A stretch of DNA of 64,000 nt from Asterochloris sp. CNOR1 (lineage: Eukaryota; Chlorophyta; Trebouxiophyceae; Trebouxiales; Trebouxiaceae), in NCBI GenBank assembly GCA_963969365.1, contig OZ017750.1, forward strand, positions 1,054,001-1,118,000, given 5' to 3'. The position numbers were made by a program, and so were the translations under genes. Below are positions 34,180 to 57,973 of the stretch, one piece after another; the stretch's first letter is position 1; the number at the start of each line of letters is the position of its first letter. The notes below the pieces were generated by a model. The model made no database searches, was not told the DNA's origin, and was given only the letters and a program-made list of their open reading frames with translations.

Positions 34180-34184
34180 TGTAA
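34180..34184 (+). terminator. Candidate TGTAA polyadenylation signal of the SMP-C2 gene
   Basis: TGTAA lies 216 nt after the SMP-C2 stop and only 50 nt short of the convergent Ddl stop, so the two 3' UTRs may overlap. Confidence 0.45.
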
Positions 34185-34233: not shown

Positions 34234-37200
34234 TTAAATGTTGTCATAAGCTTCACCCTGGTTGGCATCAATCAGGGAGAAGTTGGAGGCCAGGGCAACG
34301 TCATCCTGGTCATCCCCCTCCAAGTCCAAATCGTCAAAGTCTGCAAGGTCATCATTGTCTACAGCCGCGCTGGGACCCTTGCGGGTGCTGCGGCCCCCAC
34401 CTCGGCCTCTGGGCCCCCTGCCTCTGCTGCCTTTCCTGATGTCGTCTGCGTGCTCCTCATCCTGCCACATCTGGGGGGAGCTGCTCTGCCAGTTGGCCCC
34501 GGGGCTGCCCCTCTGCCATGCTGCTGGCGCTGCCTTCTTAGGCCCGGCTGTGTGCCAACCGCGGACCTCGCCTGCTGGGTTGCCTCCACCGCTGCCGTCC
34601 TCTGGAGGGGGGTCGCCGCTCCCGCCAAAGGCGTCGCTTGCTGCCTCGCTCTCAGGACCAATCAGATGCGCCAGGCTGACCATCTCGGCAAAGAGTGCGG
34701 CGGGGGACATCCCTGCTGCTGCAGCCTGCTTGTGCAGGCGCTTCAATCAGCAAGCAGACCGACAGGCATGCAGCTGTCTCTCTGTGGGCAAAGGCCAAGG
34801 ACTGATGCTCAAAGGTGCTTCACCCCGTGAGCCTGTTGGCAGATGCTAAGCAAGTGCAGGCAAGGCCAGAGCATGGGGATCAGTGCTGCAAGGATTGAAA
34901 GCGTCCATGCTCAGCATATGTATACATCTTGCTCAGCATCCCACACTTGCCTGCTGCAGCATGACAGAGCCCTCGGACAGGTCGGGCACCAGGTTGACAT
35001 CAGTCACAATGATCTCCCCATTGTCCGCATGCATGAGCACATCCACCTGCACCAGGGAACAGAGTTGCAGTTGTTGTTGCAGCGGCCCTCCCTTGCAGGG
35101 CAGCTGCGCTGACACGTGGACATGCGCTGCCCCGTTGTCACCCCTGCACCAGTGTCACTTGCTGTCTCCTTTGTTGATCAGCCTATCCCATAAGCACAGA
35201 TTGATTGCCTGCCGCAAGCATATTGGCGCAACACAGGTGGGACCAGAGATAGCAAGCAGGCACAGCCACCTGCGCAAGGCCAGCCAGCCCTAGGCGGTCG
35301 GCCACGGTGAGGATGAGTGTCTGCATGAACTGCAGGCGGTCAGGGAAGATCAAGTCCACAGGCGGGGGACAGAGTGTCATCGTTTCGGCGGCCTGCAGCA
35401 GCAGACGGGGATGATCAGGCGGAGGGAAATGCAGAGAGAAGAGCAAGCGCTGAGGATGAGCAACCTGAGGCAACAGGCTGGTGTCCCTTTCACAGGGGCA
35501 GCTGCAGAGGTGCTTAGACAGCTGGAGCCTGGCGATGTGGCTAAGGTAGCATGCGCATGACCTGAGGGTGTGCAGGCATCTCCACAGGCAACCTGGCAAA
35601 TGGAGCCGCACCTGGTAGGAGCTCGTGCTGCTGCAGCTGGGATTCTAGCACGTGCTGTGAATTGCGCAGCCAAGCAGCCCCATGCCCATGCAGGCAGCCT
35701 GCCTGGCAGGCGCGTACCTGGATGGAGGGCAGCTGCACGGCATCGCGGTCGCGGCGCTTGTGGGCACGGATGGAGGGGGGCAGGCAGTGGGTGCGACCAG
35801 CCTCCCCCAGGACGCCCACAGTGGTCTCGATCCAGCGGCTCTCCCCCTCCCAGGTCAGGGTCATCCCTCCGTCCTCCTGGGGGTCTGCCACAATCCTGCA
35901 GCCAGGCAGGTGTTTTGATGCAGCCTGCAACCGCTGTTGGGCAGACTGCACACCACCACTCTCTGGCACTTAAGTCTGCAGCACTGACGGCAGCACAGGC
36001 CAGCGCTGTTCAGCACCGCCATGTGCAGCTGCGACAGCCCACGCCGTCAGGCAATGTCAGCATGGCACCCACCTGCCGGTCTCGATGAAGGGCTCCACAA
36101 GGAGGTCCCAGCTGTGAATGCCGTTCATGGGGATGTCGCCATGGGGGTAGCTCAGAGCATTACGGGGGATGAAGGGCCACAGGCCCCGGCAGGCTGTTGC
36201 GTACAGCAGCAGGTCATCCTGATTGCGCAGGCGGGCGCGGCCGATGCCGTTGGAGCCCACAATGGGACGGATGACCAGGTCCTGAGGGGTGTCAGGGGAC
36301 AGGTCTGCAGGGCAGCAGAGGCACACTTGTCTTCAGCCCAGGGCTGTGGGGCAAAGGCTCCTGCCGTCTCATGCTGCAGGACGGCAGAGACATGCTGTGG
36401 CGATGCCTGAGCTGCAGGCCAGGGGCAGCTGCAGCATAGTGCTGAGCAATAGCAGACACCAGGGGAGTGTGGCCTGGGGCTGCAGATTGGCTGATCGTCA
36501 GGGCGGGAAGGTACAGAGGGAATGCTGCCCACAGGCCTGCAATCCCAACAGAGGCACGGTGTGAGCAAGGGCTGGTTATGCAAGTAGAGCTGCCTGTGCT
36601 CCATGCTGCTGGCAATGATTCAAGTCAGCATGGCACACTTCCTGATTCCAGGTGACTTGAACATGCGCAATGACCTTGAGGAATGTCAGGCAGGGCTGCT
36701 GGACTGCAACTGTTGGTGTCACCATGGCGGTTTTGCAGGATGTGGCTCTGCCCACAATCCCCCCATGCCTTCTCAAGGCACGTGATAGCACGGCAGGGAC
36801 AGTCAAACAGCGAACGCTGGAGAAGCACTAAATGAGCTGTCAGAGCATGCCTCATGGGAGGACTGACTTGTCTGAGCACCACAGCCTGCGACTGACAGCT
36901 CAGGGCCCAGCCGGCGCTGACAAGACAAAGGCTCCTGCAAGTTGATGAGACCTGCACTGACAGATGCCAGACAGCAGCACTCACTGGGCTCACATACACA
37001 TGTCACAGCGCATATTTCACAATGGCACCTGCCAGTGACTGCTCAGGGTGGCTGAGCTCCTGGACAGCAGAGGGGCCCTGCTTGTGCACCACGCCTGCAC
37101 TGGCAGCATAGCAGGGCCAGGCCAGGCACCAGCACTCACTGAGCTCCTCACAGAACATGCCCCACAGGAGGGCTGGGGACTCCTCCTCGTCCTCCACTGC

Positions 37201-40200
37201 CAGCTGCAGCAGGGTCTCCTTCAGCACAAAGTGTGGCGGCGTCAGGATGCGGTTGACCTCCAAAGGGCGCAGCATCTCTGCCAGCTTGGCCTGCAGGGGG
37301 GCCAGGGGAACCCTGTCACACGTTGCGTGACATGAATCTCTGGGACGCTGCAAGCTCAGACCCACTGCACAGCAGCAGCCACCTGCTCAAGCTTGGCCTG
37401 CCAGGGGGAGGCCAGGGTCGTGGTGCCATGGTGTGGAAGTGCTGTTCAGAGCCTGGTAGATGCTTGTGTAACCTTTGCATCTGCTGCAAAGCAGCAGCCA
37501 GCCCCGAGAGCTTGGCCTGAAGATATGGGCTGAGCCCACAAGAGCGACTGGCCTCCGTCATTGTGGCACTCAGGGGTGGTGAACACTCTGTGAGGCTTCT
37601 GCCAGGCTGGAGGTTGTGGGCTGCTCAGGGGCGATGACCTTTGGGCCCTCGATGATGGCCAGACAGAGCTTTGCACCAGGCAGACATGCCCCAAGTGAGC
37701 TTCCTTGCCCACAACAAGGCCAGAGCTTCCTCCGGGAGGCTGCTTGATGCGTGTTGCACAGGTCAGGCTGCACTCAGGCAGACACAGGTGCGCTGGCATC
37801 TACCTTTTCTTTGGGAGATTGAGTGGCAGTTGCACAGGCACTGTTGCTGCAGGCAACATGCTGGCAAGAGAATATACTGATGTTCTCAGCGCAGTGAGTA
37901 TGCCGCAGCTCATAGACCACAACAGGGCATGATTGTTCAACTGAGTGTTCCTGTGGCACCAGATTTGACAGCATGGGGCATGAAGGGGGCCGCATGCTGC
38001 TTCGAGAGGTGCAGCTGCGCGAGGTGAAGCCCAGCCTCCACCCTTGCCTGACACACCCCACCTTTGCCCGCTGTGAAGGCCCCACGCCTCACCTCGACCC
38101 CGCACAATGCTGGAGCCGTCTGGCCCGGTGCATGCTGCATTGTAGCGCTGCATGGTTGCTGCACTCTGTGACGGTAGAGCCCCTGGGCCCACCTTGTCCT
38201 ACTTCAGCTGCCGCCACCTGGCCCAACGCCTGGTGCCCAGCCCCACTCTTGGCCTGGCTGCACTCTGACTGCACAGGCCGCGCCGCTCACCTTGTCCCAG
38301 CACAGGCGCATCGCCTCCTCGCCACTCCCAGTGGCCAGGGCTGGCCACCCCCCCTCGCCGGGGGAGCGTGCCCAGGCCTGCATCACGCCACTGGCGCCCT
38401 GCTCGTCTGGCACTGTGTTCAGGATGACTGCCCAGTTCTGCCAAGCCTCGCAGGTGAACGTCTCGTAGTCCATCAGCCTGCAGGCGCACGCTGCACTGAG
38501 CCAACGGGGATGCAGTGGTGCAGCAGTGCATGGTCACCATGTTGTGAGGTGCCATGCTGATGGTGCTGGTCCTGCCTGCTGGTGCTACTGCCTCCTGGAG
38601 CCGTCCTGTCAATCAGGCAGGCAGTTGCATGCACAGCACCGCCTGTGCACCTTGTCTGGCACCCACAAACCACCAAATGCCAGTATCTGAGGCCGACCAG
38701 GACCAAGCACAGGTCACCAACCACTTGCTGCAGTGCAGTGCTGCAGCTTGCCTGGGGGCAGGTAGTTCAGTCTCCCCATCCACCTTCACGTCCCAAAGGT
38801 CCCCCAGCCCTGGGACCCCCGCATATTCCAGTTCCCGCAGCACCTGCAGGGTCACAGCGTACATTGGAAGAGCACGGACAAGGCTTGCCAGGGCCCAGGT
38901 TGCATAGGAAGCACCTTGGCCACAGCTGCAGAGTCATGCTTTGCCACTGTCTCTTAAGGACTCCAATGCGTGCAGCACTGCAGAGGGTGAGCAGCGTACA
39001 GATCAAGTCCAGGAGCCTCCAGCAGGTGGGCCCTTGCCAGTCATGGGTAGGCACTGCTGCAGTGATTAGGTGCCGCAACATGTGCTGCTGCAGGGCCCAA
39101 GCCACTGCTGCACAGGGGTGTGCCACTTTGCACTTCTGAGCACCCCACCAACAGGCTGCTGCCGAGGGGTGCATGGCATCACCTGCTGCTGCAGGGGCCC
39201 AGCCCCTTGCTGCTCAGGGGTCTGCAGGCGGGTGATGGTGTTGGCTGCTGCAAGACTGTGCTCGCAGGCAGCCATGATGCCCTCTGCTGACTCGCCCAGC
39301 ATCTGCTTGCGAGGCATAGCGTAGACCAGGCGATCAGCTAGCTCAAAAATGATGGGCTGGGGATTCCTGCAGCAGGCAGGGTCCAGATCAGGTTCTGGGG
39401 GACCACAATGCCCAGTTGAGCGCGCCAGCAGACGAGGTACAGTTGCAGGCAGTATGCCGAGGACGGGTTGCGTTGCACAGCAGGATGATGTCTGGCTGCC
39501 ACTGCGTGCATACTCTTTGCTGAGGGCTTTTGTTCGGCTGTGAGCTGATGGGAGCAAAATCCCTGTGTTGTACTACACAACCTGCATGGTTATGCTTCAC
39601 CAGATTGTTCCAGGTTTTCATTCTTTGCCACATGAAGCAGCGCTCACCTGATGCACTGTATCTGCAGCTCTGTCTCCATCTCCTCTTCATCAGCTCCCAA
39701 TCTGAGCAGCTCATTGCGTTTACGCAGCATGCGCTTCCGCCGGTTTTGCTCGCGCAGGCCGGCATTGGCAGGCGCCAGCAAGAAGGCCTCAACCTGCACA
39801 TTGAGGGCAGGCCTGGTGGCAGGCCCGGGACCAGCTGTAAAGCATGCTCAGCAAGCTAGGCACCAGTACTTGTGCTGGTGAGGACAGCAGCGCCAGCGGA
39901 GGTGCTCGCCCACCTGCAGAGGCAGCATGCAGCCCAAGTCTGGCTCAAAGTTTGGCTGTGCCCTGCAGGCTGAAGGGGCAGAGGAAACAGGCCACAGCTC
40001 TGCAAGACCGTGCTGGACGCAGGCCAGTGAAGTCACAGGTCCTGCTGTGCTGCCCTATGGGTGTCACTGCCGCCCAGGGCCGACTGCCTGCACGCCAAGA
40101 GACCACCAGCAAGGTGGCTGGCCAAAGCAATGCAACAAAAGCATAGATGGTGCTGCTCCCTGCAGGTGTTGCTGCTGCCCAGGTCCACTATTTTGCAGGC

Positions 40201-43200
40201 TAAAGGACCAAAAGCAGAGGTGGCTGGCCACAGAAGGCAAGGCAGAAAGGGCAATATGGAGCGCAAGCACAGGGCCTGCTGCTGCCTGCAGGTCTTGCCG
40301 CTGCTGAGGACCAGGCCCCAAGGCTGTCACCTGGTACCCCTCTAAGGAGTCCAGAGCCAGGAAAGCATTGATCCCAGAGGCGATGCTGCGGTCCCGCTCA
40401 GCCCCCGCGCCTCCCATCAAGATGTACACCCGCCGTGGCCAGGGTGCGCTGTGCTCCAAGCTCAACGGCGGCTGCCCTTGCTGCTCCTCCCCATCAAGCT
40501 GCCCATCCCAGGCACCTCCACTGTCAGTGACGCCTACGGCCTGCAGGCACAAGGGAGGCAGAGTTGCAACATCAGACATTCTGCTGCCAGCCATGCAAGG
40601 TCCATGGCACACGTTCACAAGTCCTTGGCGACAGGCATATGCAGCACTGCAGCAGCAGATAGCTTGCCGTCTGGGCCACAGCAGATACTGTCTGGAACGC
40701 ATTGCCTGGCGGGAAGGCAACATGAAGCCGGGTCCTGGCGGGGTATGGAGGAATGCCAGCACTGCGTGCTTGGCTGTGTGCGCCAGTGGGCATCTGCACG
40801 CTGCAGCAGTCAGATATGTGTGCTTGCTGGCCGCTTGCTTCTCACCTCGTCCTCAAAGGGCTCAAAGCCCCTGCCAAACTCGGGCCATGGGCTGCGAAGG
40901 TCCTGCCCAGGCTCAACATAGTCAAAATCCCCCGGCTGGGGCTTGGCTGGCTCAAACAGCGCCCCATGCTCCTTGGCTGAGTCCAGAGCCTTTTCTTCAT
41001 CAGCATCCTCCATGAGCCACTCTGCATTGTGGCCCCGCCGCGCCACTGGAGGCCACTGCAGGCTTGCACGCTTGCTTGTGAGACAGCTGGCATCACAGGT
41101 GGCGGGAGCAGCCAGCAGACTGCACATGCATGAACTTGCCCCAAAGCAGCTGGCCTCGCAGGTCAGCGGCAGACCAGTAAAGTCGACACCAAAACAGAGG
41201 ACGGCCTCTCCAGTGGAGAGCAGGGTGCAGACCGCTCCTCCAGCAACAGAAGGCTGTCTGAAGAAAGCATCCTTTCATGACAGTTTTGTGCAGCAGGGCA
41301 AGCAGGCAACTGCCTGTCCAGCAGGGATATGCCCATAATCTGGGCTCACTTCCAGGCCCTTTCTTCAACACTACTGGGCTTTTCAGACAGGCTCAGCTGT
41401 GTGAGAGACTGGCAGCTGCATCATGCCCACATGGCAGAGGCAGGCAAGCCTCCTGACTCACCACGGCGGTTGCATCCAGGTAGATGGGCAGCACGATCCA
41501 AATCTGCCCACCTAGTATGAAAGATGGCCGCCGAAATGTATGAGATAAGTGACCCCACCTACATTTGTGACACCACCCGGCACATTGTGCCCCCAGACTC
41601 ACCACTGCAGGCGCGTTGAGGTAGGCGGGTGGCATGATGTAGTGCTGCCTCATGTCGACCTCCACCTTCTGCCCCAGGATCTCGGCAGTGGCGATCTGGT
41701 TGTCGCTGCTGTCGTCCACCAGGAACTTCTTGGCAGGCTTGAGCAGGGGGTACAGCTGCTCCCCACGGCTGGGGGTGGGCAGCGCGGGCAGGCCGGCACG
41801 CTCGGCAGCCTGGGACAGGGCGTACAGCAGCAAGGCCTGGTGGGACAGGCCAGCCTGGGCTGCCTGCTGGTAGACAGTGCTGGCAGGGTGCAGGGTTGGG
41901 CAGGGGTTTATGTCCGTGAAGACGATGACGCCATCCTCCTGCCTGCAGGAAAGAGCCCAGCTCTCAATTGATCTGCAGGGTGACAAAGGCTGACCTGAGC
42001 TGAGATCGAGAGTGTTGTGAAGCGTGTGCCACCTGTGCAGAAGGAAGCGACCCTCCTGCAGGCAACGAGGAGCAGGCAAATGCAGGTTGGGGCAGGCGGT
42101 GATGTCTGTCTGTGAAAATCAAAGACGTCAACCTCTTGCCTTCAGCAACTGCACTGTCAACGTGACATTTGTTTGTGCACCATGGTGTCACCAGGATGTC
42201 GACTTCCTGAGATCAAACTGTGGACACCAGGCAGAGGCGGCATATTGTTCTGGGGCTGCAGCTGCTGCTGCTGCTGCTGCTGCTGCCCAGCACAACCCCC
42301 AGGCCACAAACCCTCCATCTATTGCTTCAGAATACAGGCGTTCACATGGGCAGGCTAGCAAGGTCATACAGCTCGCGCTTGTCCCCTGTGAAGTCATTCT
42401 GCTACAGCGCCAGGTCCTCAGCAAGCATCGCTAGACATCCATATGGCCCCCTCCCTTGCTCCTTGAGGGGGCCTTGCTAGATCAGGCAGGCTAAGGAGTG
42501 GCTGGCCAGGTGGTGCACACACCAGCACAGGCGCTCAGATGGCAGGCTGGCCAGGTCCTGCAGCACGCCCTCGTCCCCTGTGAAGTCATCCAGGACTGCA
42601 TCAGCGGCTGCCACCTCCTGCTCGGCCTCCCACTCCTCCCACTCCAGCTCCCTCTGGGCGTCAGCCTCAGCCTCCGCCTCCGCCAGCGTCTGCAGGCCCA
42701 GCTCCTCAGGCGGGGTGTCCAGCCAGGGCCACAGGCTGCCTGTAACCAGTTGCGGGTTGGAGCTCAGCAAATTCTGCAAACAGAGAAGCGATGCTCACCG
42801 CCTGCGCTGCGAGTGCAGGCAGAGCTACAGACTGGCTTGGCCCGCAACCACTGGTGATAGCACACCAGATTCTACACATGAAAACAAGCAGTGTTCGGTG
42901 TCTCAGCTGAATGTTCAGCCTGGCCCACAGGCTGCCCCTAGCTGCGGCTGCATTGTAGCAAACTTTGCACACTGGAGCACTGTTTTGCAATCTCAGCTGG
43001 GAGTGCAGCCAGGGCTACAGCTTGCCCTCAGCTGGCGTAAGGGCCGCGGCCGTGTTCAGCTACATGGAACGCAGCTTCTTGAGCATTACAGGCATCAGGC
43101 TGGCTGAGGCGATGCGCAGCCAGGCCCACATGGCGCAGCCCTTCTTGGAAGCTGGTATGCCGTGCATGTAGAAAAATAGATCTGCAGCATCACAAGCTTT

Positions 43201-46200
43201 TATGTGGCTGAACAGGTGGCGGTTCAGCCGTGTAACAAATGCAGAGCAGGGCTGCAGCCGCTGAACGGCGCTTAACAGTACCCGCCAGAATGCAACACTC
43301 ACCCTCTCCCTCCTCCCCTGCTTCAGCCTTGGCCTGGGTCTGCAGGCCAGCCTCTCCTGCCTCCCCTGCTGTCTCTTCTGCCTCTGCCTCTGCCTCTGCC
43401 TGAAGCTGCATGTTACGCTCCTCGGGCGTCTGCATGTCAAGCTCTGCAGGGGCGTCCTCAGGCCAAGCCGCAGCCTCTTGGGGGTCAGTCTCACCACCCT
43501 CTGCACAAACAAGCGCTGTTGTCCCAGACAGAGTAGCATGATGCAAGGGTGCCACAGGTGATGCAGCTCTGACATTGGCCTTCATGCATTAAACTTCAAG
43601 CGCCTGTCATATGAGCAGCATGTCTGCTCTGCGACTTTGCTTGTGTCAGTGTGGCTGGGTGCAGAAGTACAGGTGCAGGGTCACCCTGCTCGCACAAGTG
43701 CAGTACCCAGAACTGGATCAGAGGCTGCTACCTCACAGATTTTGAAGACTACTAACTGGGTAGAGGGCCTTCGCACACCTGAGAGCAGCCCAATCTGGCA
43801 GGCGCCAACCCAGCCTGAGTGCGAGAGGCATGAGCATAATCACAAGCGCACCTCACCTCAGGCAGCAGAGACAAACAGTAGGCGCCTGCATGCACTGCCC
43901 CCACACGTCTGTAGGCATTCATCATTGGGGCAGCTTCCGGCTGTAGCCCTGTCAAAATAAGTTTTGCCCCCATGTGATGCCTGGCTACAGCCGACTGCAG
44001 CAGGCAACCCACCTAGCCTGTGAACGGGGGGCATGGGCGTGCTCTCCCACTCCTGGAACCAGGACAGCTGCAGATCATAGTCAAATTCGTTCAAGTCGTC
44101 CTCCATGGGCAAGCGCCCCGGCACCTGCACGGCCACCGTGATGCATGAGAGGCTGCTGCAGGCTGACAGCAAGGCCCGCACGCTGCTGCAGGCAGCAACT
44201 GCGTGACACACTGCTCCACCCCGCATGAGCCAGCTCATTGCCTGATGTTGGTTGTAGCAGATGTTATAGAACCGTCAGCAGATATAGCCAAGACTTGGTG
44301 CACTGCCAGGCACATGTTCACAGCTAACAGCAAGGCCCGCCCAGGCGGTAAGGTGCTTGCTGACAAGCCTCTGCATCGCCAGGCAATCGCAAGGTGCTTG
44401 TGTAGAAGGTCTTGCAGGTTGGCGCTACCCTGCCCCAAGCTGCACCTGAGGGTTGAACATGTCGTAGTCCTGGGTGACGCGATCAACCACCTGCTCCCTG
44501 CGGGACGAAAGAGCACCCTCTATGACCGTGTCCATGGGCTGGGCCCCAGGGTCTGCAGGGCAATGGAAAGGGGGACTCAGCCCCATGCATGGCTTGACCT
44601 GGGCACGAGCTTACAGCAGCAGTGGCGTGCCATGTACAAGCAGCAGTTGAACACCAACAGGTTCACTGTTGTGGCCAGGCAGAGGGCTCGTCAAGCAACT
44701 CTGCTGACAAGGTGCTGTTTGCAGCCACAAAGAGGTTCACCATGGGGCACAGCAGCTGTCACCCGGCACAGGACAGGAGCTCACCATCAGGAGCGGCAAT
44801 ATTGGCGCGTGTCAGGATGTGCTGCACGTCCTGGTCATCCCCAATCACGTTCTTCACGCCAGAAGTGATGTCCGCAGTGCGGGCGACAGCTGCAGCAGCT
44901 CCCTCAGGCTGAGGGCGTGCCACAGCGGCTGTGCGGGAGTTCGGGGCAGAAAACTCAATGTACATCTCTTGTTCTTCTCGCATATGCCCCTGCTGCTGCT
45001 CTTCTGCCGCCTCTGCTGCCTGTGCAGCATCTGCCAGGCTGCCGCCTGCGGCTGCTGCCTGCTCCGAGCCCTGCGCCGCCTCTGCTAGTGCACCCGCGGC
45101 GCCGCTTCGCGCCCTGGCAGCCTCTGCTGGCTGCTCTGCTGGAGCATCCTGTGCCTGCGCTGCTGGTCCCTCCTCCTGCTGCAGGGAGTCTGCCCCTGCC
45201 ACAGACTCCTGCAGGGCAGCGTCCGCCTGGGCCAGCCAATCCCCCTGGGCAGCACCTGACTCCGCTGCCTGCCGCGCTCCAGAGGGACCCTCCGGCCCTG
45301 GCTCATGGCTGTCTAAATGTGAGGGCTTGATCTCCAGCATGAGAGGCTGGAGGTTGGCCATGGCAGCAGTGACAGCAGAGGAGCGGGGTGTGGCGCCTCC
45401 GTCCAGGGGGCTGAGCATGCTGCCGGCCAGAGCAGCAGTCCTGCTGCCGGCGTTGACAGGCTCGCCCTGCTCGTTCAGCTCTGCCAGAGGCAAGTCCTCC
45501 AGCTCTGCTATCCCTGGGACGTGCCTGACCCAGCCATCAAACTTGGCTATGCCTGACAGGCCCATTTCCTGCAGGCAGCCAGGCATGGTGCGCTGCCTCA
45601 GGGCAGGCATGCATCAAGGTATAGCACTGCTTCACTGAGTGTCGCACAGCCAGAAGACGGTGCCCTGGGAAAGTCTGGATGCAGGCAAGGCAGCAGGGCT
45701 TACTGCTCATCCTGTTTGCTGGGCAGCCCTGCTGTATGTTGTGTAGCTCACTGAATGACCCACCACCCCTTGAGCAAAGAGCAAAGAAGAGAACACTATC
45801 TTGCACAGCTTGGTGATCCCAGCGAACCAAGCACACCTTGAACAGCTTGGCAGCCCCATGCCTGATGCTCTGGATGATGGCTGAGCTGAAGCGGGGCGGT
45901 GTATGGTAGACAGTGCGCTGAGAATATGGGCGCCGGTCACTCCAGGGGGTGTCGGCGTCCAGGGCTAGGTCCACCGGGGTGCCCACCTCCGCTGCGATCT
46001 GAGCCTGGGTGGTGATCTCCGCAATGTCATCTGCAGGCATGCCCTGCAGTCAAGATGAATTGTAGCTCGACCTTGCTGTCACAGCCAAGCACGTTTCTTC
46101 GCTGAGGGGTAAGCCTGGGTGGTGACCTCCTCAACAAGGCTGCATCCATGCCCTGCACATATAATGTGGCTTCAACGATGCCTGTCACGGCCAGGCACCT

Positions 46201-49200
46201 CTGATGACAAGCGTCAGCGGTGGCAGGCCAAGCCCTGCTGCCTGGAGGAGACGCCCAGTGTCGGTGACTTCGACCACGCCGGAGTTGTGGCCAGGTATCT
46301 CTGCAGAGGAATACTTTTGAGTCGCCACCCTCCTTTACACGGACATCACATGTCCTCTTCTGAGACTCAGCACTGGCGGCCAGAGCGGGACAAGCTTGAC
46401 AACTCACAGCCGGCGTCAGGCCTGTCCCTACTTCTGAGGTACCAGAGATGGCAGAACGTTGTCACCTCCTGCAGCATCCTGTGCTTGTTGGCAGGACGCA
46501 CCCTGCTGCTGTATGATCCTGAATCAATTACGAGGCATCCAAGCAGACTCTAAGTAGTGCCACAACCCAGCTGCAGCTTGCTGCAAGTCAAGGGTGGAAC
46601 GGCACCTACCTTCAGCCGCATGGTGTCCTCCTGGTTCTCGAGCTCTGAGTCATGGATGTCGAGGTTGTAGTCAAACACCTCCAACTCAGTGGGCATCAGG
46701 GCCACAGGGCCCCTGTAGGGGGGCACACACGTCTCAACAACCTGCCAAGATGAGGAACAGCCGCGGCAGGTCAGAAACCCAGCACAGCGGTCACCAGGGC
46801 CAAAAGGGCGCCTCAGGTAGTAGGCACAGACTCTGAAAATCACGGCCACAGCAGCCATCTGGTCTGGAGAGGTTTGTGGTTGCCAGGGCTTCAGCTTGCA
46901 GCAGGGCTGGCGCATCTGTTTGGCCACTCAGGTAGAATATCGCCTCTTTTCTGTCTCATGGCAAAGGACAGCGCTGGCTGAGGCAAGAATCGTGTGCCAT
47001 GAGACAGGCAATGCAAAGGGCCTGGTGGCTGTCTGCTATAGCAACTTACTTGGGACTCTCAAACACCGCGACGCTGTACTCAGACCAACCCCTGCGTGTG
47101 AGCCAGGGCTCCACAATGAGGGAATCATCCACACCCTGCAGCCACGATAGTTTTGTGCTTCAGCAGTGCTGGGCAGAGCCCATGGGTTGCTGCCCAGCCT
47201 CCCGCTGATAGATTGGGTCCCTGCGATGCATGTTCCAGTGTGACCCTGTTGCAGCACCTGTGACATGTAGCCCAGGCACAGTGGCAGGTTGCAGAGGCAC
47301 AGTGTCAGCCACTGCGGTGTTGAGTTGCAGCAGGAGCCTGCCAGGCACCCCAGGCAAATTGCAGCACAAGCAGCCCAGGCACCAGGACAGGTAACATGAT
47401 GAGGTTTGCTGGCTACCTGCGTAGAGAGCTGCCTGCTCCCTGCTAGAGTGCACGCCCCAGCAGCAGGGTGCAGGCAGCTCTCCGAGTATGAAGCCAGCCC
47501 TGTACCGCACTCTGAAGCAGCCAATGCTGCATTGAGCAGGCCAGGTGGTGCACCCTTGGAGCCAATCAAAGTGGAGCAGCAGGACAGCATGGCCCCAGTC
47601 TGCCAGCATGACGCCATCCAACCATGCTATTGCTTTTGTAGTGTGCCAGCACACAACGATCCTCGCATCAGGAAATGGGAGTTTAGCACTCACAGGTGCA
47701 AAGAGAGCTCCTTGGCAGCACAGCCTGTCCCCAGGGTGCCAGCGTGGAGCTATCAGCCGCCACTGCGCTGTCCATTGTGTGGCAGACGAAGCACTCACCG
47801 TGGCAAACAAGTCCATGGCAGCATGGCCAACAGCCAAAGCCCCCCGCACAGGCTGCACCCCCACGCCGGCATAGCCACTAGCAGGCTTGATCATCAAAGG
47901 GTCTCCCTCTGGATCCATTCCAGTTGCACGCATCCAATCCACCAGGGGGTCCATCCAGTTGGCCTGACCCTCCTCCGTGAACCACTCAACTTTCAGCTCA
48001 AACATGGGCAGCGTGGCAAAGTTAAGGTTGCTCATGAGCTCGTTGCACCTGCACTGCCACAGCATGAGTCTCTCACATGGGCAGCCACCTTGACATGAGA
48101 ATGCCAGGCCACAGGCACATTGTGATGAAACAGGCCTGAGACAGCGTACTGCCTGCAGTATCCAACTGCCAGATCCTCCAGGTCATGGCGGACGGGCGTG
48201 CGCGGCTTCTGCCCTTGCCGCCCACGAGCTGGGCTCAATCAAATCACGTGCATGCGTCACCTGGCCTTGTGCTGAGCACTGACCAGTATGGCAAAGCGAG
48301 GAGCTGTGCAAAAGCAGCAGTTGGCAAGGACTCAGGCAGGGCTTCCTGTAAGATGCCAATGATAGTGCGTCAAGAGTAGGACATGGCAAAAGTCGGGCTG
48401 GGCTTGCATCGTGCCTGCAGGCAAAGAGCCTGCAACCCTTCAGCTTTGGGTTTCAAAAGCAAAAGGCAGCTCACCTGGCTTTGTGCTGAGCATTGGCCAG
48501 GACGGCAGCGTTGGGAGCCGCACAGGGCACGCCTGCTTCCTCAAGCGCCTGCTGCAGCATGACCAACAGCCGGGAGTCTGCCATCGCTGGCAGCACCATC
48601 TCAATGCCCTGCTCCTTCAGCTGGTTTGACAGTGCCTGCAGGCAGGCCACGCAGCTGAGGGTCAGGCAGCTGAGGCTGCATGCCTGCTGCCATTGCAGCT
48701 GCACCAGGCTCTGCTGTCGACGTGTCCAGTGCAGCTGAGGACTTGCAGTGGCTTGCAAGGGCATTGCAGGCTGCCTACTTGTCATTGATCAGCATGCACA
48801 GTCAAGCTTAATACTTGGGATCAGCTGAATGCAGCACCTCCTGAAAGCCGTGCCCATGAGCATTGTCATGCACAACACTCACTCGCGCCCTACAAGCAGC
48901 CATTGGGTCAAAGACCACCACAGCCACACTTTATCTCCCCTCCAAGGCACGGAACACATCATGTTGCTACTGTTCTGCACAAGGCATGTTGCTACTGTTG
49001 TGCACAAGGCATGTTGCTACTGTTCTGCACAAGGCAGTCCAGGTCCACCATGTCCAAGGCCGCCCACCTCCAGATCGTCGAAGCGCTGCTCCCCCTCGGG
49101 TCGCTGGGCGGCCAGCAGCTCCAGGTCCGACAGATTGCAGCCATGCACCTGTGTGGGGCTGACCATGATCATTCGCCCTGTGCTGGCCAGGTAGTAAGCA

Positions 49201-52200
49201 GCAATGCCAAAGCCGATGCTGGGGGCCGGGTCAGCGTAGTGGGGCAGGTCCACATCCTGCACGAGTACAAAGCGATGACAGACAGTTTTGTGTCACACAG
49301 TCAGAGACACACACAAACACACACAGAGGCTTCTGGCCATTTGCCCTTGAGTATGCCTGCAGGCTGCCCAGATGGGAGCTTCAAGGGGCTGCAGGTGATG
49401 CATGAGCCAGTGGCCTGCACAACCTCGCGCCGGTTGCACTGCCAGCATGCACCAATGGTGTCTGTGGAGGGACACAACATGCAGCAAGGCAGCAGGCCCA
49501 TCGGCTGCCGAAGGCTCTGCAACGCTGGATCCCAGCCAGGCAGGGGCAAGGTATGCCTGTAAGCACTGCACTGCAAGGTGTACTGCCTTCTGGCAAAGCA
49601 TGACAGAGCATGCTGCAGTGAGTGACACAGGCAAGCATGCAGCAAGGCAGGAGCCCACTAGCTGCCGGCTGAGCCCCTCCATGCTCTGCAGCCACATGCG
49701 GGTCTGCGACAGTGCGCTGAGCCCCGCGGAGGTAACGGCCCCCCCAAAAATGAGCGCCACGTTGAGCGTGGGGACGCCCTCAGGCAGCTCAGGTCTGCGC
49801 ACGAGCTCCGGTGTGAGGGCCTGCTGCTGCGCCTCCTCCACCTCGTCAACCACTGCTGCCACACGCTGGTCTGGAGTCTCCTGCAGGGGCAGCATGAAGG
49901 GCTTGAGACAACAGCAACCCCTGAGTTGTTGCTGGTCAAGGGTCGAAGCCCAAGTCCTGCTGCCGGGCCTCCTCTGCCTCGTTGACCACTCGCCCTGTGC
50001 TGCTCTGGTGTCACGTTCGGGATCATCAGGAGGGTTGTCCCTGTGAACAAGGGTGGCAACTTCAACATGCATGGCTGTGAGCTGAGGCACTGGATCCAGG
50101 CCTGGTGGGCCTGGCCGTGGCAGCAGGAGGGACACAGCACGAGCAACATGAGGCAGCGCTGGTCTTGGCCAGGTCTTCTGCTGTTGGAGCAGGCACAATG
50201 TGAGACATCTGCAGGATAAGTTGAGCATGCAGCACCTCCAAGGCATATGCTCCAGAACATCTTGACAGCGGCTGCAGGGCAGCCTGAGCATGCACGGCCT
50301 TGAGCAGGTTGAGGCTTAACGGCCCTTGACATCACACCAGCTGCGTGGCCACTCGAGAATGCAGTGCCTTCAGGACACATGCCCTCCAGCATCTTGCCAC
50401 GACAGTAGCTGAGGGACAAGTTGAGCATGCAGATCCTTGAAGGCACTTGATCCACAGGATGTACCCATGACAGCATATATGGGGCAGCTTGGGCAGCCTG
50501 TATATGGTTAGCAATACTGCAGTGACTCACCAGTTCCTCTGCCTCCTTCTGGGCCTTGAGATATGACTGCTGCGCCTGCTTCTCCGCTTTGTACTCAACA
50601 TTGAGAGCCTTGACAAGACGCTCCTGCTTCTGTACAGTGCGCAGCTGCTCGTTGGGCGCAATCCCCCTGACATCACACCATGCCTGGAGTTCATCCCGCT
50701 TCAGGTTCTGCACCTGCAGGCAATTTGGCAGCAAGCTGCACATATAGTGTGGCTGGGCAGGCGTCAGCGCCTGTTGTCAGACATATGGGCTGGCTTAGTG
50801 TGGGGCAGCACACCCTTTAGCAAGTCACATGGCACACTCAACAGGCATACACAAGCTGCTTGAATTGTGTCCCCCCCTGAAGGTGGTGTCCTGCACACGA
50901 TCTCAGATGGTGCTGCTCTGCGTTGTGCTGCTGTGGCAAGGCATGTGGCCCACAGGAGCCATTCCCCAAGCGACACGGGTTGCAGGCACAGCATGTGCAC
51001 CTAGAGAATACATGAGCAGTGCCCATCCTTGACAGTGCTTGAGCCAGTGCTTCTGCTGCTGACCGCTCAGACCAGGTCATGCGCAGTGATATGGACATGC
51101 TAGGAAGGCAGGCACATCATGTGCATTGAGAGCAAGTCTGCACTGTGCATCTCACAAGTCCTCTGATGGTGCCACTTCTGGTGCTGATGGCAAGGCTGGC
51201 TGCCCATGCAAGCCCAGTGGCAGCTCATACAAGTGTGCAAGAAGGGCAGGTGCAGAGCATGCGCACCCAGAGGATCATGTCTCCCATGGACTTGAACTCT
51301 GGGAAGGTCATTTGTCCGCGCAGCTTGCGCTCAACAGCGGCGGTGGCCAGAGGCCTCAACACCTGCAGGGCACCCATATGAGCTTGATGAATGGAGGTGG
51401 CAAGAGCCGCAGAGTCTGGCAGCAATATGCCTGGAACATTGGGCAAAAGGGGCATGGTCTGGCTTGCTGGCTGCTCAAGCCCCTTCACCTCGCGGTAGGG
51501 GAGAGGGATTGGCCCACACTGGTTCTCCATGTATTCGACCATGTCCTGCTTACGACGAGACTTGCCCCCAGGGAACTGGTTGCAGTAGGCCCTGCAAGGC
51601 AGCGTAACATGATTGGAACTCTTGTTGCAGATGAACATGTCAGCTGAGGAGTGATCTGCCCCTTGGCATTGCGAGGCAGTGGGTCGGTCCTATGCAGCAG
51701 ACACTACACCTCATCCCAAGACAACCACCACTCATCCTGGATGGCAGGATGGCAGTTGGCCCTGCAGAACGCACAACATGCAATCCATCTTTCACCCACT
51801 CTCAATGTTGGCACATCAACCTCCCCAGACATCTGCTGGCAGCCATCAGCCTGGTCTGCGCAACTCTGCCACAGCCATGTGCTGAACAGGAGCTCCAGCT
51901 GAAGGTCTGCTGGCTTGTGATGCTGCTCGCACACTCGCACATGTTGCAGTGCAACCGTGATCCCTAAGCTTGCTGGACCTGGCGCTGGCCGACCCCACCT
52001 GAGGTTGGTCTGGTCCATGGCTGCCCAGGATGACGGCAGATCGCTGCCCAGCTGGGACGTGGGCGCCAGCCCAAGCAAATCATGAACCTCCAGCAGTAGG
52101 TCCATCTCCTGCTCCACAGCCTCAGGCGGCACCTCGACGGGCTCTTCTTCCTGCAGTAAAAGATTGTTTTTGAATGACTTTCTGGTGTCACTTACACAAG

Positions 52201-54956
52201 AGCCATCTCTGGCTTCACGGTCTGGGGGTGGCACCTCAATGGGGTCCTCCCCCTGCAAGAGCGTCAGAGGCCTGGTCATGACTGAAGTGTGGCTGTGTGT
52301 TGCAAATTGTCCACCACCTGCTGCACAGCCTTGAATGGAATGGCGCGACAGTAGGGCCCTCCCTCTGCAGCAGCAGACGAGATGATGGCTTGTAATTGTC
52401 TCTTGGGTGCAGTCACCCCACAGCTGCTGACCATGACCATGCCTCCCTGAGCCTGTCCCTGAGCTTGCCTTTGTGCAGGTCTGGCCGTGTAACAGCCAGC
52501 AGCTGCAGGCAACTCTGCAGCTAGTCACAGGCTTGATAAGGCTAGACCGCTTCAAACTGTGCCGTCTCCGCCTTCAGGCCTGCAGGGTCCATGCACAACA
52601 TCCATCTGGCCATAGGTGGCCTGGCAGCACAACGACAACTGCTAGAAACCCCAACCGGCTTGCAGGCCAGCCAGCCCCGACCTGCACCTGCTGTCCTCAG
52701 TGCTCAGGCTGTAGTCCACAGCCCTTGATCATGCCGCAAAGGTGCTCATGCATGCCATAGTGGAACTGGTGAGGAGGTGGCCATCTGGAACTGCAGACAG
52801 CCTGCTCCCACCCCTGTCAAAGAGCCCCAAGCACTTCAAAAGTGCGTGCTGTGAGGTGCACACTCTGTTGAAATGTTGCTGATTGACTGCAGGCGGCCCA
52901 TCCTAAGCCTCTGCTGCCCCACCCTATGGTGCCCCATGAACCTCGGAGCTTCCTTCTGTCAGGTGCACATCCCACTGAGCAGTGCTGTTCTGCCCGGTGC
53001 TCTGGACCTCCCTTTGGGCCTCACTGTCGACGATGGCGCCGCCCCTTACTTGAGTGTTGCGCGTGCACATCCCACAGTGGGATGCTTTGCAGCTGCCAGC
53101 TGCTGTCCCTGCCTGTAGGTGGCCCCACCCCAGCCTCTCTGCCCCTATGCGTCATATGTTGAGAGTACATAACGGTGCAAGGTCTTTGGCAGATGCTGAT
53201 CATCGCCACACCTTCTGGCATCTCAAATTGTTTCACGCCCAAATGTTGTGCTTCTGGACGACGAGCTTCAGCTCGCTCCTCAGCCCCTGAGCCCGCGCTC
53301 AGGCCCACGAGCATCATATCTGTCCATAACCTGCCTTGTGCTGGGGGGTGCTGTGTGCACCTGAGCCTGGAACCCACTGAGGCACCCCACTGGTCCCCCT
53401 GCCTGCTGCTGTCCTACCTGCAGGTGGTCCACCCCCAGCCTCTCCACCCCGTCATCCTGCTCCACATACTCCAAGTCTGCCCAACCCTCCATGCCATGCT
53501 GCAATTCTGCTGCGTCCGGCGTTGCTGACTCCAGCTTCCCCTGAGGGCCTGCCAGCTCTGGCACTTCGTCCAGGGGCCTGATGCCTGGCCCCAGAATACC
53601 CTCGACCTGCTCCAGGATCTTCGTTTTGAGACGCCTCTCGTTGATGCCCAGCCGTACCAGGTAGGGCCGCAGCTCGGTCACCGTCAGGTTGGCCCAGGGC
53701 TGCTCAGGGATGTCGATTTGCTGTAGCTCCTCCTCTGTGGGCTCGGGGGGGAGACCTTGAGCAATACGCTCGTTCTCATAGTCTGCCATGCGCTGGGCCA
53801 GAACATTGGTGGAGCCTGCATGACAGCCAGTTGCAGCAATGCCTGATGAGCCTGCATAACAGCCACTGATGCCTGATGAGCCCTTGCCCAGTGCTCGGCT
53901 GAATGGCCTTCAGCAGCATGCCCAATAGATGCGCGCCAGGAAGCTGTTGGAGGCCGTTCTTTCCCTTTCATGTGATGGGCTTTCTTCATCCCAGTCCGCC
54001 ATAAGAGGTCTAAAGACGTCCTGGAGCATGCAACACAGTCAATGTATTGCAGCTTGCCTTGTGAGCACCGCATGTCCTGCCTCTTATGGGAAGGCACAGC
54101 GGCAGGCAGGGGAGGATTGGGGGACATGCTGTGCAGGGGAAGAGCGCAGTCCATTAGCCAGGCAGCTGACTCCACTGCAGCTTCACACTTGACAGCGAGG
54201 ATTGCTGTTGCCGCGACACTACGCTCCACATGCCAGCCTCCCCAGGTGCTGCCTCACAGTGCTGCGCTGCACTGATGATTAGTATGGCCGCAATGAGGGA
54301 AGAGACATGCAATTGTGGCATCAGCCTGTCTGTCATGCTTGGCAGCCCTGCCGCTGCTGAGTAGACATCTGTGCTCACCTGTGGGATCCAGGCCCCTCTG
54401 CCGTACTTTCTCCCTCAGCTCTGGCAGACGGTAACGCACAAAGTCGGTGGCTGTCCGTGTGTAGCGCTCGGCCTGACCGATCGTGCTGCGCCTGTGCAGG
54501 AGGCGATTGATGAGCTGACTCTTGACACCTGCACTCGGCAGCCCAGACGCTGGCACACAGGCTGGACCAGTGTAGGACAGGACGCTGTCACCAGTCTCAA
54601 GCACAGGTGCTGCCACCAGCTCCAGGCAACACATGCTTGCAATTGATCCAGCAGGGGGATGTGCAGGCACACGGCTTGGCCAGCGCCCACAAAGCCACTA
54701 GTTCATGCCCGAGCTTCAGGCCTGGACATGGCCTCCATCTTCCTGAGAACTCACCTACAGCGGAGAGGCCATGCATCTTGCAGAGCTTCTTGATCTCTGT
54801 GACATTCATGGTCTCCAATTCTGCTGTACTGGTCCTGTTGAAGTCAATGTCCTCAGCCGCTGGGGGTGCAGCCATGGGCACCAGAAGGCTACGCCATCTG
54901 CCTTGCTGCCGCCACGGCCCACAGCGCAGCAGCTGATTCCCAAGCGTGGGTTGCAT
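34234..54956 (-). CDS. Giant fusion: SAP-like repeats plus tandem D-Ala-D-Ala-ligase-like (ATP-grasp) protein
   Basis: One gene of 33 exons, all junctions phase-compatible, predicts about 2,217 aa. Residues 1-35 are Arg-rich and transit-peptide-like. Five SAP-like motifs fill about 20-430 ('NVTEIKKLCKMHGLSAVG', 'LPELREKVRQRGLDPTG', 'LTVTELRPYLVRLGINERR', 'GGKSRRKQDMVEYMENQC', 'LKRDELQAWCDVRGIAPN'). Ddl unit 1 spans about 445-840 and 1338-1420 ('VALIFGGAVTSAGLSAL', 'DPLMIKPASGYAGVGVQPV', 'YHTPPRFSSAIIQSIRHGAA', 'FDGWV', 'VIVFTDINP'), split by an acidic insertion. Unit 2 spans about 1565-2075 ('VYILMGGAGAERDRSIASG', 'DLVIRPIVGSNGIGRARL', 'RWIETTVGVLGEAGR', 'EIIVTDVNLVPDLSEGS'). Exon ends, 5' to 3': 54956-54755, 54528-54379, 53815-53418, 52150-51999, 51591-51489, 51362-51267, 50713-50531, 49880-49659, 49256-49068, 48635-48475, 48048-47799, 47135-47067, 46741-46610, 46004-45837, 45568-44785, 44552-44446, 44124-44013, 43500-43303, 43181-43090, 42773-42529, 41942-41603, 41055-40846, 40540-40331, 39793-39648, 39366-39183, 38843-38752, 38477-38291, 37290-37140, 36304-36073, 35895-35718, 35392-35270, 35046-34951, 34725-34234. 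Land-plant plastid DDL is also a two-unit fusion. Activity is doubtful. Confidence 0.85.
37255..37520 (-). repeat. Junction echoes of Ddl-fusion exon 37290-37140 start
   Basis: The acceptor and exon start (reading GCCAAGCTGGCAGAG on the minus strand, ending at 37290) recur weakly near 37385-37410 and 37505-37520, each with an AAGCTTGGCCTG-like core on the plus strand. Confidence 0.45.
41450..41640 (-). repeat. Junction echo of Ddl-fusion exon 41942-41603 end (5' splice site)
   Basis: On the minus strand the exon end TACCTCAACGCGCCTGCAGTG with donor GTGAGTC is copied about 142 bp into the intron as TACCTGGATGCAACCGCCGTG with donor GTGAGTC (41454-41493). The copy even preserves a readable Tyr-Leu-x-Ala-x-Ala-Val sequence before the donor. 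Confidence 0.7.
42261..42286. repeat. CTG/CAG microsatellite
   Basis: An uninterrupted (GCT)8 run lies in an intron of the minus-strand Ddl-fusion gene, where it reads as CAG repeats and contributes many potential AG acceptors. Confidence 0.95.
42349..42602 (-). repeat. Junction echo of Ddl-fusion exon 42773-42529
   Basis: Bases 42349-42410 repeat exon bases 42541-42600 with about 80-85% identity by eye, including the shared CGTCCCCTGTGAAGTCAT-like core, at an offset of about 190 bp. Here the copied piece is exon body close to its 3' end. Confidence 0.7.
46004..46310 (-). repeat. Junction echoes of Ddl-fusion exon 46004-45837 start
   Basis: The plus-strand sequence CCTGGGTGGTGATCTCCGC around the exon's acceptor (46004-46040) is copied at 46112-46168 (CCTGGGTGGTGACCTCCTC), with a fainter copy near 46255-46305. 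The offset is about 108-145 bp. Confidence 0.65.
48961..49035. repeat. Tandem repeat, three copies of a 25-bp unit
   Basis: Three head-to-tail 25-bp units (ATGTTGCTACTGTT then CTGCACAAGGC), the middle one with a single base difference, lie in a Ddl-fusion intron 32 bp from an exon end. They look recent because they are almost identical. Confidence 0.95.
52101..52260 (-). repeat. Junction echo of Ddl-fusion exon 52150-51999 start
   Basis: The acceptor and exon start (minus strand GAAGAAGAGCCCGTCGAGG) are copied about 102 bp upstream at 52201-52260 as GGAGGACCCCATTGAGG. The copy still has an upstream TTGCAG acceptor on the minus strand. Confidence 0.7.
53095..53456 (-). repeat. Junction echo of Ddl-fusion exon 53815-53418 end
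   Basis: Plus-strand bases 53396-53454, spanning the exon end and donor (TACCTGCAGGTGGTCCACC), are repeated at 53097-53153 (TGCCTGTAGGTGGCCCCACC) with the same CCCAGCCTCTC tail, about 300 bp into the intron. Confidence 0.65.
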
Positions 54957-55393: not shown

Positions 55394-57832
55394 ATGAATG
55401 AGCCTCTCTGGGCAGTGTCAGCCTGCCAGGCTGTTCAGCTGCTGAAAAGCAGGCAGGTGTGCAGCACCTGCTTGCTGCATTGTGTCTGCATTCTTTCTCT
55501 GCCAGCCAAAGGCCCTGCGTGCAGGTCACACCTCTGCAGCTGATTGATGTGGCAGAAGCAAGGATCAAGGTGTGCTGCATCCCTGCCACCATGCTGCCTC
55601 ATGGGCTTCCAGCGTTGCAACAGGTTTCAGCCTGCTGTGCAGGAGACTGAGCCAGCAATCAATGCCACCCCTATCACATGCTATGATCGTGCACGGGAGC
55701 GGGCAAGAGCTCTCATGGCAAACCCAGTGGCCGCCCCACCACCAGGTTTCTTGTACGGTGAACATCTGCTTTCAGCACGCCTGTATGGCACGCTGCAGCC
55801 TGTAGCAGGGCATGACACGCGATACATCACTCTGCAGGCCTGCCCATACTCATCAAGGTGGGTTTGTGCAAAATAGCTTGCGTAAAAAGCAGCCTCCTGC
55901 CGACCCCACTGCATCATCTCCCGTGCTGCAGGATGCCACTGCAGTCAAAGGAGTTCGCTTCACAAGGGTGAGAGGATTGCACCGGAACCTGTCTGGCCCC
56001 CAGGGGTCGGGCCTGTCACTAAGAACGGCTTTGCTGACTTCTGCTTGCAGCTGACTACCTTCATCTCAGCACAACTGCAAGGTGCCTGCTGCAGGGCAGC
56101 CTTGTGCATAAGGATGACATTGCTGACTTTAATGATCCTCTGGTAGAGGTGCTGGAGAGCAGGGGAGCCATCATCATTGGTAAAACCAACATCCCTGAGT
56201 TTTCAGCAGGTAAGTCGAATGGGTGACCCTGCTAGTTCAGATGACTGGTAGCTGCTGTGCTGCTGAGCCAGAGATGTCTGTGCTTTCTGCATGGCGCCAG
56301 ACAGCAGCATGCATGCTTGCAGGGGCTAACACGTTTAATGCTTGCTTTGGGAGCACGCGAAATCCATGGAACACCCAGCTTTCGGCTGGAGGTTCATCAG
56401 GCGGCTCAGCAGCCGCCTTGGCTGCAGGACAGGTGAACATCCTGGGTGCCTGGGCTGAGTGCTGTGTGACAAGAAAACTGCTGTTGCAGCAGCCCTGAGT
56501 CTGCACTCATCATCTGCAGATCTGGCTTGCCTCTGGGGCAGATCTGGGTGGGTCGCTTCGCATCCCAGCATCTTACTGTGGCGTTGTTGGGCTGCGACCA
56601 ACTGCAGGGCTGGTTCCTTGCATCCACCCCAGCTCTGCAGAAGGCGCTGATCCTGACAGGCCCCAGCTGCGGGGGCTAAGTGGACCGATGGCCCGCAGCG
56701 TTTCTGACTTGGCGCTGTTCTTGGACGCAATGGCAGCAAAGCACCCCAGGTCTGCGCCTGCTTTGGGTCATGCTTGCATTGTACAGCTTCGTCTGGTGCT
56801 GCCAAGGTGGAGACAGCCCTGCTGATGCTGCTGTCCTGAATTTGCATCTGCCTGCAGGGACCTGCTGAGCCGGGTGCCTCCTGTTGTGCCCTTCAGTCAG
56901 GCCATTCAGCCCGGCGCTACACCACTGCCCCGCCGAATCGCATGGTCTGCAACCTTGGGCGGCCTGTCTCCTGTTGAGCCTGAGGTTGCTAGGATCTGTG
57001 GGCAAGCTGCAGCCTGGTTCAGTAGCCTTGCAGAGCTCACTGACGCGTGGCCAGACATGCACGACGCTTCTCAGCTCTTCCAGGTCAGCTCTCTGGTCGA
57101 TTTGCAAGTACTGCAAGCTGCTTTTGCTCGTGTGCAAGCTCTTGCTGGTGGTACACAAATGTCCCCTGCAGACACCTCATGCAGCTCAAACTTGTCCTGA
57201 ACCGCTTGCACAGACAGTGAGGGCAGAGGTATACCAGTCCATAAGCCACTTGGTCAGACAGCCGGCTCGCAGCTTGATCAAGCCTGAGCTTGTTTGGCAG
57301 ATTGAGCGCGGCCTGCAGCTCACGAAAGAGGAGGTGACTGTGCAGCTTGGAATGACCTGCATAAGCTGCTATGTACAAGCGTGACTCGCTGCAGGTAGCC
57401 AGAGCTGAGAAGGCACATGTTGCCTACACACAGAGATTCACAGCATTTATGGAGGACTTTGACCTGCTGTGCTGCCCCTGTGTGATGCTGGCACCCTTTG
57501 ATGTTGCTGTGCGGTAGGTCTCCCTGCTTGCTGCTGCGCTCTCTGCATTGCCTGTCTACATATGTCATGCTGACGCTTGTTGCAGGTGGGTTCCAGAGGT
57601 GGAGGGCACCCTCTTTGACAACTATGTGGAATGGCTAAGGAACACGTATGCTCTATCGCTTCTGGATGTACCCAGCATGAGCCTGCCGTGTGGGCAGACC
57701 AAGGATGGCCGGCCAGTGGGCCTGCAGCTTGTGGGCAAGAGATACGGAGAGGCTGCCCTGCTTGCTGCGGCGGCTGCTTATGAAAGAGCCCATGACTGGG
57801 CAGCCCTTGTGCCCTTAAGAGCAATGTCATAG
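55394..57832 (+). CDS. Amidase-signature enzyme (Ser-cisSer-Lys amidohydrolase)
   Basis: The predicted protein (481 aa) hydrolyses an amide bond; substrate unknown (candidates are amide hormones, fatty-acid amides or other small amides). Twelve exons join in phase: 55394-55456, 55525-55569, 55643-55757, 55838-55857, 55932-55967, 56095-56209, 56323-56432, 56520-56749, 56858-57083, 57214-57333, 57395-57513, 57586-57832. The catalytic lysine is in '[17 protein letters not shown]', the cis-serine in '[17 protein letters not shown]' and the nucleophile in '[19 protein letters not shown]'; '[16 protein letters not shown]' and the C-terminal '[20 protein letters not shown]' are also typical. The triad is complete, so the enzyme should be active. 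Exons 4 and 5 are only 20 and 36 bp. The start is the first ATG of an open first exon; an upstream exon is possible. No GatA-specific context is visible. Confidence 0.92.
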
Positions 57833-57973
57833 AATGCACATGGAGGTCATCCACACGCTGGAAAGGTAAGCTCAGAAAAAGGGGAAATTCTATGCTATTA
57901 CACAGCGGCCGGCCCTGCCAAAGCTGGCGTCCGGGCTGCTGCACATGCCCGACAACACAGCACCGCTCTGAGG

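Follow-up and report, generated by a model that had tools for sequence, protein, structure and literature searches.

The question raised by this locus is whether a SAP-type head and a doubled Ddl, the fold of the D-Ala-D-Ala ligases, belong to one gene and, if so, what the resulting protein would do. A tandem Ddl is already known: land-plant DDL is a two-unit fusion, and the function of the Arabidopsis protein, AtDDL, is in doubt (excerpt of PMC9954125). No description of a fusion of SAP and Ddl was found in the open-licence PubMed Central literature; the sole match for SAP domain, Ddl and plastid together, PMC12681378, describes no such fusion in the excerpted text. As far as the literature searched shows, SAP motifs, Ddl units and an RG-rich tail in one gene would be a new combination.

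Exon chain and surroundings of the gene

The gene is genuine. A chain of coding exons runs along the minus strand of the window (the whole stretch of 64,000 nt that was analysed), from an ATG at 54956 to a stop codon at 34234. The exons were defined by a Viterbi search that combines codon log-odds with donor and acceptor tables. As these tables were trained on peptides from the same gene (31 of 32 typed anchors were recovered) and as neither stops nor phase conflicts are allowed in the search, the exon model serves as a consistency check. The freedom from stops and phase conflicts pointed out in the initial annotation is therefore found again in the model, but as a property imposed by the exon search itself. 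The number of exons depended on the intron penalty: a moderate one gave 32, a heavier one 31 (exon 51362-51267 was dropped), and the weakest one 47, many of them tiny and with a different 3' end. The 32-exon model was adopted for all exon numbering. From ATG 54956 it encodes 2,192 aa; when the last junction is set as GC-AG (exon 31 ending at 34951, exon 32 starting at 34725) the product has 2,195 aa. This GC-AG intron (CAG/GCAAGT) is the best fit and restores the spacing of the Ddl C-terminus. The 33 exons and 2,217 aa proposed initially are close to these figures. The coding frames of the 32 exons scored between +0.02 and +0.50 per codon, and in 31 of 31 introns all three frames scored below zero. 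The features are as follows.

Exon 1, 54755..54956, minus strand: leader (MQPTLGNQLLRCGPWRQQGRWRSLLVP), then the opening half of SAP motif 1
Exon 2, 54379..54528, minus strand: second half of SAP motif 1 (motif at aa 46-82), then the opening half of SAP motif 2 (motif at aa 96-133)
Exon 3, 53418..53815, minus strand: remaining part of SAP motif 2, followed by the borderline candidate motif 3 (approximately aa 157-193)
Exons 4-6, 51267..52150 (52150-51999, 51591-51489 and 51362-51267), minus strand: linker and candidate motif 4 (without SAP match)
Exon 7, 50531..50713, minus strand: candidate motif 5 (without SAP match) and a long helix, with a strong donor at its end
Intron 7, 49881..50530, minus strand: disputed junction between SAP and Ddl exons; codon scores non-coding and intron-like whichever of the three frames is read
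Exon 8, 49659..49880, minus strand: charged linker, after which Ddl unit 1 begins (NVALIFGG)
Exons 9-20, 41603..49256, minus strand: remainder of Ddl unit 1, including an acidic insert
Exons 21-22, 40331..41055, minus strand: linker, after which Ddl unit 2 begins (RRVYILMGGAGAERD)
Exons 23-31, 34951..39793, minus strand: Ddl unit 2
Exon 32, 34234..34725, minus strand: last Ddl helix, RG-rich basic tract and acidic tail in a single ORF, the stop codon of which ends at 34234

The leader of 27 aa contains 4 K/R, Arg among them, and no D/E, a composition that would suit a transit peptide. A second in-frame ATG is present within exon 1, at 54875. At the sensitivity used, a second copy of the SAP half or of the Ddl half was not found in the 56.4-Mb genome. 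Relatives of exon 14 and exon 3 were not found in viral contigs, and Rfam gave no match in the 64,000-nt window.

The gene is flanked by genes on the plus strand. Positions 139-33964 carry genes for an FtsH-type M41 peptidase and for PPR, TPR and SMP/C2-domain proteins. The C2 gene is convergent, its stop at 33964 being 270 bases from that of the SAP-Ddl gene, and a TGTAA is present at 34180. Positions 55600-62707 carry amidase and Myb-domain genes, the amidase gene being divergent to the SAP-Ddl gene.

The junction between SAP and Ddl exons

The two halves of the protein meet at the exon 7/exon 8 junction (50531/49880), which has a donor score of 7.2, an acceptor score of 8.7 and phases 0/0. 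The frame of exon 7 stays open beyond its donor and reaches its first stop only at 49660. Another copy of intron 7 was not found in the genome. The reading that we favour, and consider very likely, is that the SAP and Ddl exons lie in one gene in which 50531 is spliced to 49880.

The alternative is that two genes are adjacent here: a gene for a SAP protein (exons 1-7), followed by a separate tandem DDL gene that starts in intron 7 or at 49895. We regard this arrangement as unlikely. Five in-frame ATGs are indeed present upstream of exon 8 (50291, 50246, 50228, 50072 and 49895), the first of them opening an in-frame stretch of 137 codons, and an Arg-rich stretch found there is a possible transit peptide. 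However, the stretch from the four farther ATGs scored -0.16 to -0.24 per codon, as introns do; the 145 codons from 50315 scored -0.271 per codon, and a positive score was obtained for the five codons from 49895 only. A DDL starting at 49895 would be without a leader. When a split into two genes at intron 7 was forced, the cost was 14.5 nats at 4/4 intron penalties, and the best split model needed a final exon of 7 codons, stop included. The same operation cost 7.6-32.1 nats at 9 of 30 other introns of the gene, and 9.8 and 6.1 nats at two true gene boundaries (at the second of these, the model did not recognize the amidase part as a separate gene); as the calibration comprises these two true boundaries only, and the costs overlap those of true introns, the split cost is at most suggestive.

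The exon finder itself was rejected as proof of the fusion. Its splice tables include the disputed 50531/49880 sites, and on the plus strand it joined unrelated genes: the FtsH-, PPR-, TPR- and SMP/C2-type genes were merged into one 48-exon model, and another model, of 17 exons, combined the amidase and Myb genes. Its one-gene verdict at the SAP-Ddl gene therefore counts little, and such mergers of true neighbours, FtsH and PPR for example, speak for the two-gene arrangement.

TGTAA serves as a poly(A) signal in green algae. Intron 7 has no TGTAA, which is of little weight against two genes since about 0.15 would be expected there by chance. On both strands of the window, 46 occurrences were counted versus 30.14 expected. 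Four other introns of the gene contain the motif and the next one after the gene lies at 33112, about 1.1 kb beyond its stop, so that TGTAA is too weak a criterion of gene ends to decide the case. The initial reading of a SAP head on a tandem Ddl can be retained, most likely as one gene: the SAP and Ddl homologies both hold, and no second copy of either half was found in the genome.

The two Ddl units and their active sites

By sequence, both units are homologous to Ddl and the two stand in one gene, as first described. Unit 1 matched PF07478 with 27.8 bits, above the cut-off of 24, and with 40.3 bits once its acidic insert was removed; unit 2 reached 18 bits, under the cut-off. The NCBIfam Ddl model gave E values of 4.2e-14 for unit 1 (insert removed) and 1.4e-10 for unit 2. 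For the Ddl N-terminal family PF01820, unit 1 was absent from the list and unit 2 gave a weak match (15.7 bits versus a cut-off of 34.6); this region was aligned by forced global mode and by MAFFT only, and the GG motif is present in both units. With TIGR01205, scores of 46.1 bits (unit 1) and 40.7 bits (unit 2) were far below the cut-off of 245.65. Profile comparison with 12 bacterial Ddls, in which each E value is that of a single pair, gave 2.7e-7 (unit 1) and 1.4e-5 (unit 2) in local mode over the C-terminal two thirds, and 1.3e-8 and 3.1e-7, respectively, in forced global mode over the whole length. When unit 1 without its insert was compared by sequence with solved structures, 8 matches were obtained at E ≤ 10, all of them Ddl-type ligases; none reached E 0.001, the best being at 0.007. 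Between the two units, 87 of 369 residues aligned by MAFFT are the same, and a local alignment of their last 60 residues shows 38% identity. Compared with DdlB, unit 1 is identical at 67 of 292 aligned residues and unit 2 at 69 of 294. The acidic, low-complexity insert of about 455 aa (aa 853-1307; 94 D/E, 21 K/R) lies inside unit 1; it is Glu/Ala-rich, is encoded by exons 15-19 (window 42523-45514) and precedes the last (TDIN) segment of unit 1.

The residues of the active sites were compared in a MAFFT alignment with the same 12 Ddls, numbered as in E. coli DdlB. The set comprises E. coli DdlA and DdlB together with 10 of 80 loci, which were the best 80 of 519 relatives; as most of the 80 are enterobacterial DdlA copies, the conserved columns lean to that group. 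Residues common to all 12 Ddls occupy 76 columns, of which 33 are conserved in unit 1 and 32 in unit 2. Both units retain K97, E180, E187, D257, N272 and S281, and in both E270 is replaced by D; D69 is also retained in unit 1, and G67 in unit 2. Unit 1 bears the changes E15S, E68A, S150A and R255K and has no HG at 63-64. The changes in unit 2 are HG63-64PD, E68A, K144R, S150N and R255Q. The substrate and catalytic set made up of E15, H63-G64, E68, S150 and R255 is thus changed at 5 of 5 sites in unit 1, and E15 alone is intact in unit 2. We take the retained residues to be mainly those that bind ATP and metal, and the changed ones those concerned with D-alanine, catalysis and the transition state. 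The order of the ATP-grasp fold and the ATP/metal residues are common to these units and to E. coli DdlA and DdlB, whereas catalytic and substrate residues are changed in both units here. Because the D-alanine and catalytic residues are changed while the ATP/metal side is largely kept, synthesis of D-Ala-D-Ala is in doubt, and the protein is probably not a working D-Ala-D-Ala ligase.

Seven peptidoglycan families besides Ddl were searched in the genome. MurE gave three exon matches on contig C5. Two weak MurG-like matches and one weak MraY-like match were found, which may belong to other families. Transpeptidase, MurF, MurB and MurC were not found in the genome, whereas the same searches were positive in 10-13 of 14 control genomes. 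As the Pfam Ddl model missed the SAP-Ddl gene itself when the genome was searched exon by exon, these absences are weak evidence.

These results bear on a further alternative, namely that a genuine fusion protein has remained active as a ligase of D-Ala-D-Ala, or of another D-amino acid, for which the SAP motifs would be only a tether. The retention of K97, E180, E187, D257 and N272 in both units, and of E15 in unit 2, is consistent with activity, as is the appearance of giant chloroplasts in a moss Ddl knock-out (excerpt of PMC9434261). However, neither unit preserves H63-G64, E68, S150 or R255, the TIGR01205 scores fall well short of the cut-off, and the missing detection of MurB, MurC, MurF and a penicillin-binding transpeptidase points, weakly, the same way. 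We consider an active ligase improbable, and the idea of a working peptidoglycan-type enzyme put forward in the initial annotation is not borne out by the substitutions in the two units.

The protein ends and a proposed plastid role

Residues 1-428 (exons 1-7) matched the Pfam SAP family (PF02037) in two stretches, with 60.6 bits (E 1e-16) against a cut-off of 23.9. Taken alone, SAP motif 1 scored 39.9 bits and SAP motif 2 scored 19.4 bits (E 8e-4), the latter under the cut-off; candidate motifs 3, 4 and 5, each taken alone, gave no match to Pfam SAP. Against a genome-specific SAP profile, built from 8 other sites of the same genome plus motifs 1 and 2, motif 3 scored 2.0 bits (7 of 1,000 shuffled decoys did as well or better); neither motif 4 nor motif 5 was reported. 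These data support two SAP motifs and leave a third as borderline but possible, the remainder being predicted helical linkers. Two of the five SAP/HeH-like motifs seen initially are thus recovered, whereas motifs 4 and 5 are recognized by neither profile.

Exon 7 gave weak matches to LETM1_RBD and Ish1, both below cut-off. The N-terminal region as a whole scored 25.7 bits against LETM1_RBD, for which the cut-off is 25.3; the LETM1_RBD family has SAP-like helices. The predicted model of exon 7 alone is confident (mean pLDDT 87.7) and consists of a short helix, a turn and a long helix; a fold search of this model against the PDB gave no match at E ≤ 0.001 and 46 at E ≤ 10. For exon 3 alone, the single-sequence AlphaFold model was poor (mean pLDDT 53.3). 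Residues 1-428 are acidic overall (67 D/E, 53 K/R), and residues 45-140, which hold the SAP pair, are basic (17 K/R, 11 D/E).

Elsewhere in the same genome, at least 11 SAP sites were found at E ≤ 0.001. None of them lies within this window, where motif 1 is split by an intron. The other SAP proteins have canonical SAP motifs, as here; no paralogue of the N-terminus described here was found. Paired SAP motifs lie close together at G000:C3:1038521-1039379 and at C13:698991-699757, and are candidates for such other SAP proteins.

At the opposite end of the protein, the frame of exon 32 is unbroken between the last Ddl helix and the stop codon. It encodes an RG-rich basic tract (aa 2129-2152; 9 K/R, no D/E and 4 RG in 24 residues), followed by an acidic tail with 15 D/E in 43 aa. 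Shuffling the whole protein 1,000 times never gave as many as four RG in 24 residues, and shuffling the tail 1,000 times did so twice; this test was picked post hoc, with the tract already known. The tract is absent from the initial annotation. Since exon 32 is one ORF, no splice is needed to join the RG tract to Ddl; whatever the status of the exon 7/exon 8 junction, sequence of nucleic-acid type is attached to the Ddl fold here, and such sequence appears to stand on both sides of the fold. Another reading accepts the fusion but sees in the SAP pair a module for protein-protein or membrane contact rather than a nucleic-acid binder; we find it quite improbable. The LETM1_RBD score just above cut-off and the overall acidity of aa 1-428 speak for it, whereas the score of SAP motif 1 alone, the basic character of aa 45-140 and the RG tract, which also points to nucleic acid, speak against it.

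Our preferred explanation, to which we give somewhat less than an even chance, is that of an exapted tandem DDL that carries a SAP head and an RG tail, acts in the plastid nucleoid or in plastid transcription and does not make D-Ala-D-Ala. The product of one gene, of about 2,195 aa, would consist of the leader, two SAP motifs, helical and charged linkers, two ATP-grasp Ddl units, the RG tract and the acidic tail. The leader would direct import into the plastid, and the SAP pair and the RG tract would hold the protein on DNA or RNA. The Ddl units might then serve for ATP binding or ATP sensing, or as a structural scaffold, in the nucleoid or the transcription machinery.

The parallel that we propose is with MurE and its role as PAP11 of the plastid RNA polymerase. 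PAP1, another protein of that case, is also called pTAC3. PAP11 contacts the SAP motif of PAP1 (excerpt of PMC12681378, citing others), so that there, as proposed here, an enzyme of the peptidoglycan pathway is placed beside a SAP domain and DNA. MurE and SAP belong to two proteins in that case, whereas here the Ddl fold and SAP would share one polypeptide. A more far-reaching version is rather doubtful: in this lineage, a doubled D-Ala-D-Ala ligase would have lost its D-alanine chemistry and gained a SAP head and an RG tail to become a scaffold of the plastid nucleoid or RNA polymerase. Besides MurE/PAP11, it would be the second peptidoglycan enzyme to have been recruited, independently, for plastid transcription, here with SAP built in. 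The tandem DDLs of Arabidopsis and Physcomitrium have two Ddl units per polypeptide, as here (excerpt of PMC9954125). Beyond the two units that it has in common with land-plant DDL, which was compared by description only, the protein encoded here has a likely SAP head, an acidic insert of 455 aa, an RG tail and changed residues at the D-alanine site.

In three Ostreococcus and in Bathycoccus, only DDL and MURE of this pathway are reported, and vascular seed plants without the full pathway are reported to have four genes, DDL and MURE included (van Baren et al., excerpt of PMC4815162). The more far-reaching version, if true, would give a reason for the retention of DDL and MurE in algae without the rest of the pathway. 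A DDL with changed substrate residues and ends of nucleic-acid type offers a direct test case for one such reason, exaptation towards the expression of plastid genes, as with MurE/PAP11. The MurE-like exons mentioned above, at G000:C5:3262436-3264353 (loci L010 and L011), are on the same contig as the SAP-Ddl gene, about 2.2 Mb off, and represent a PAP11-like candidate.
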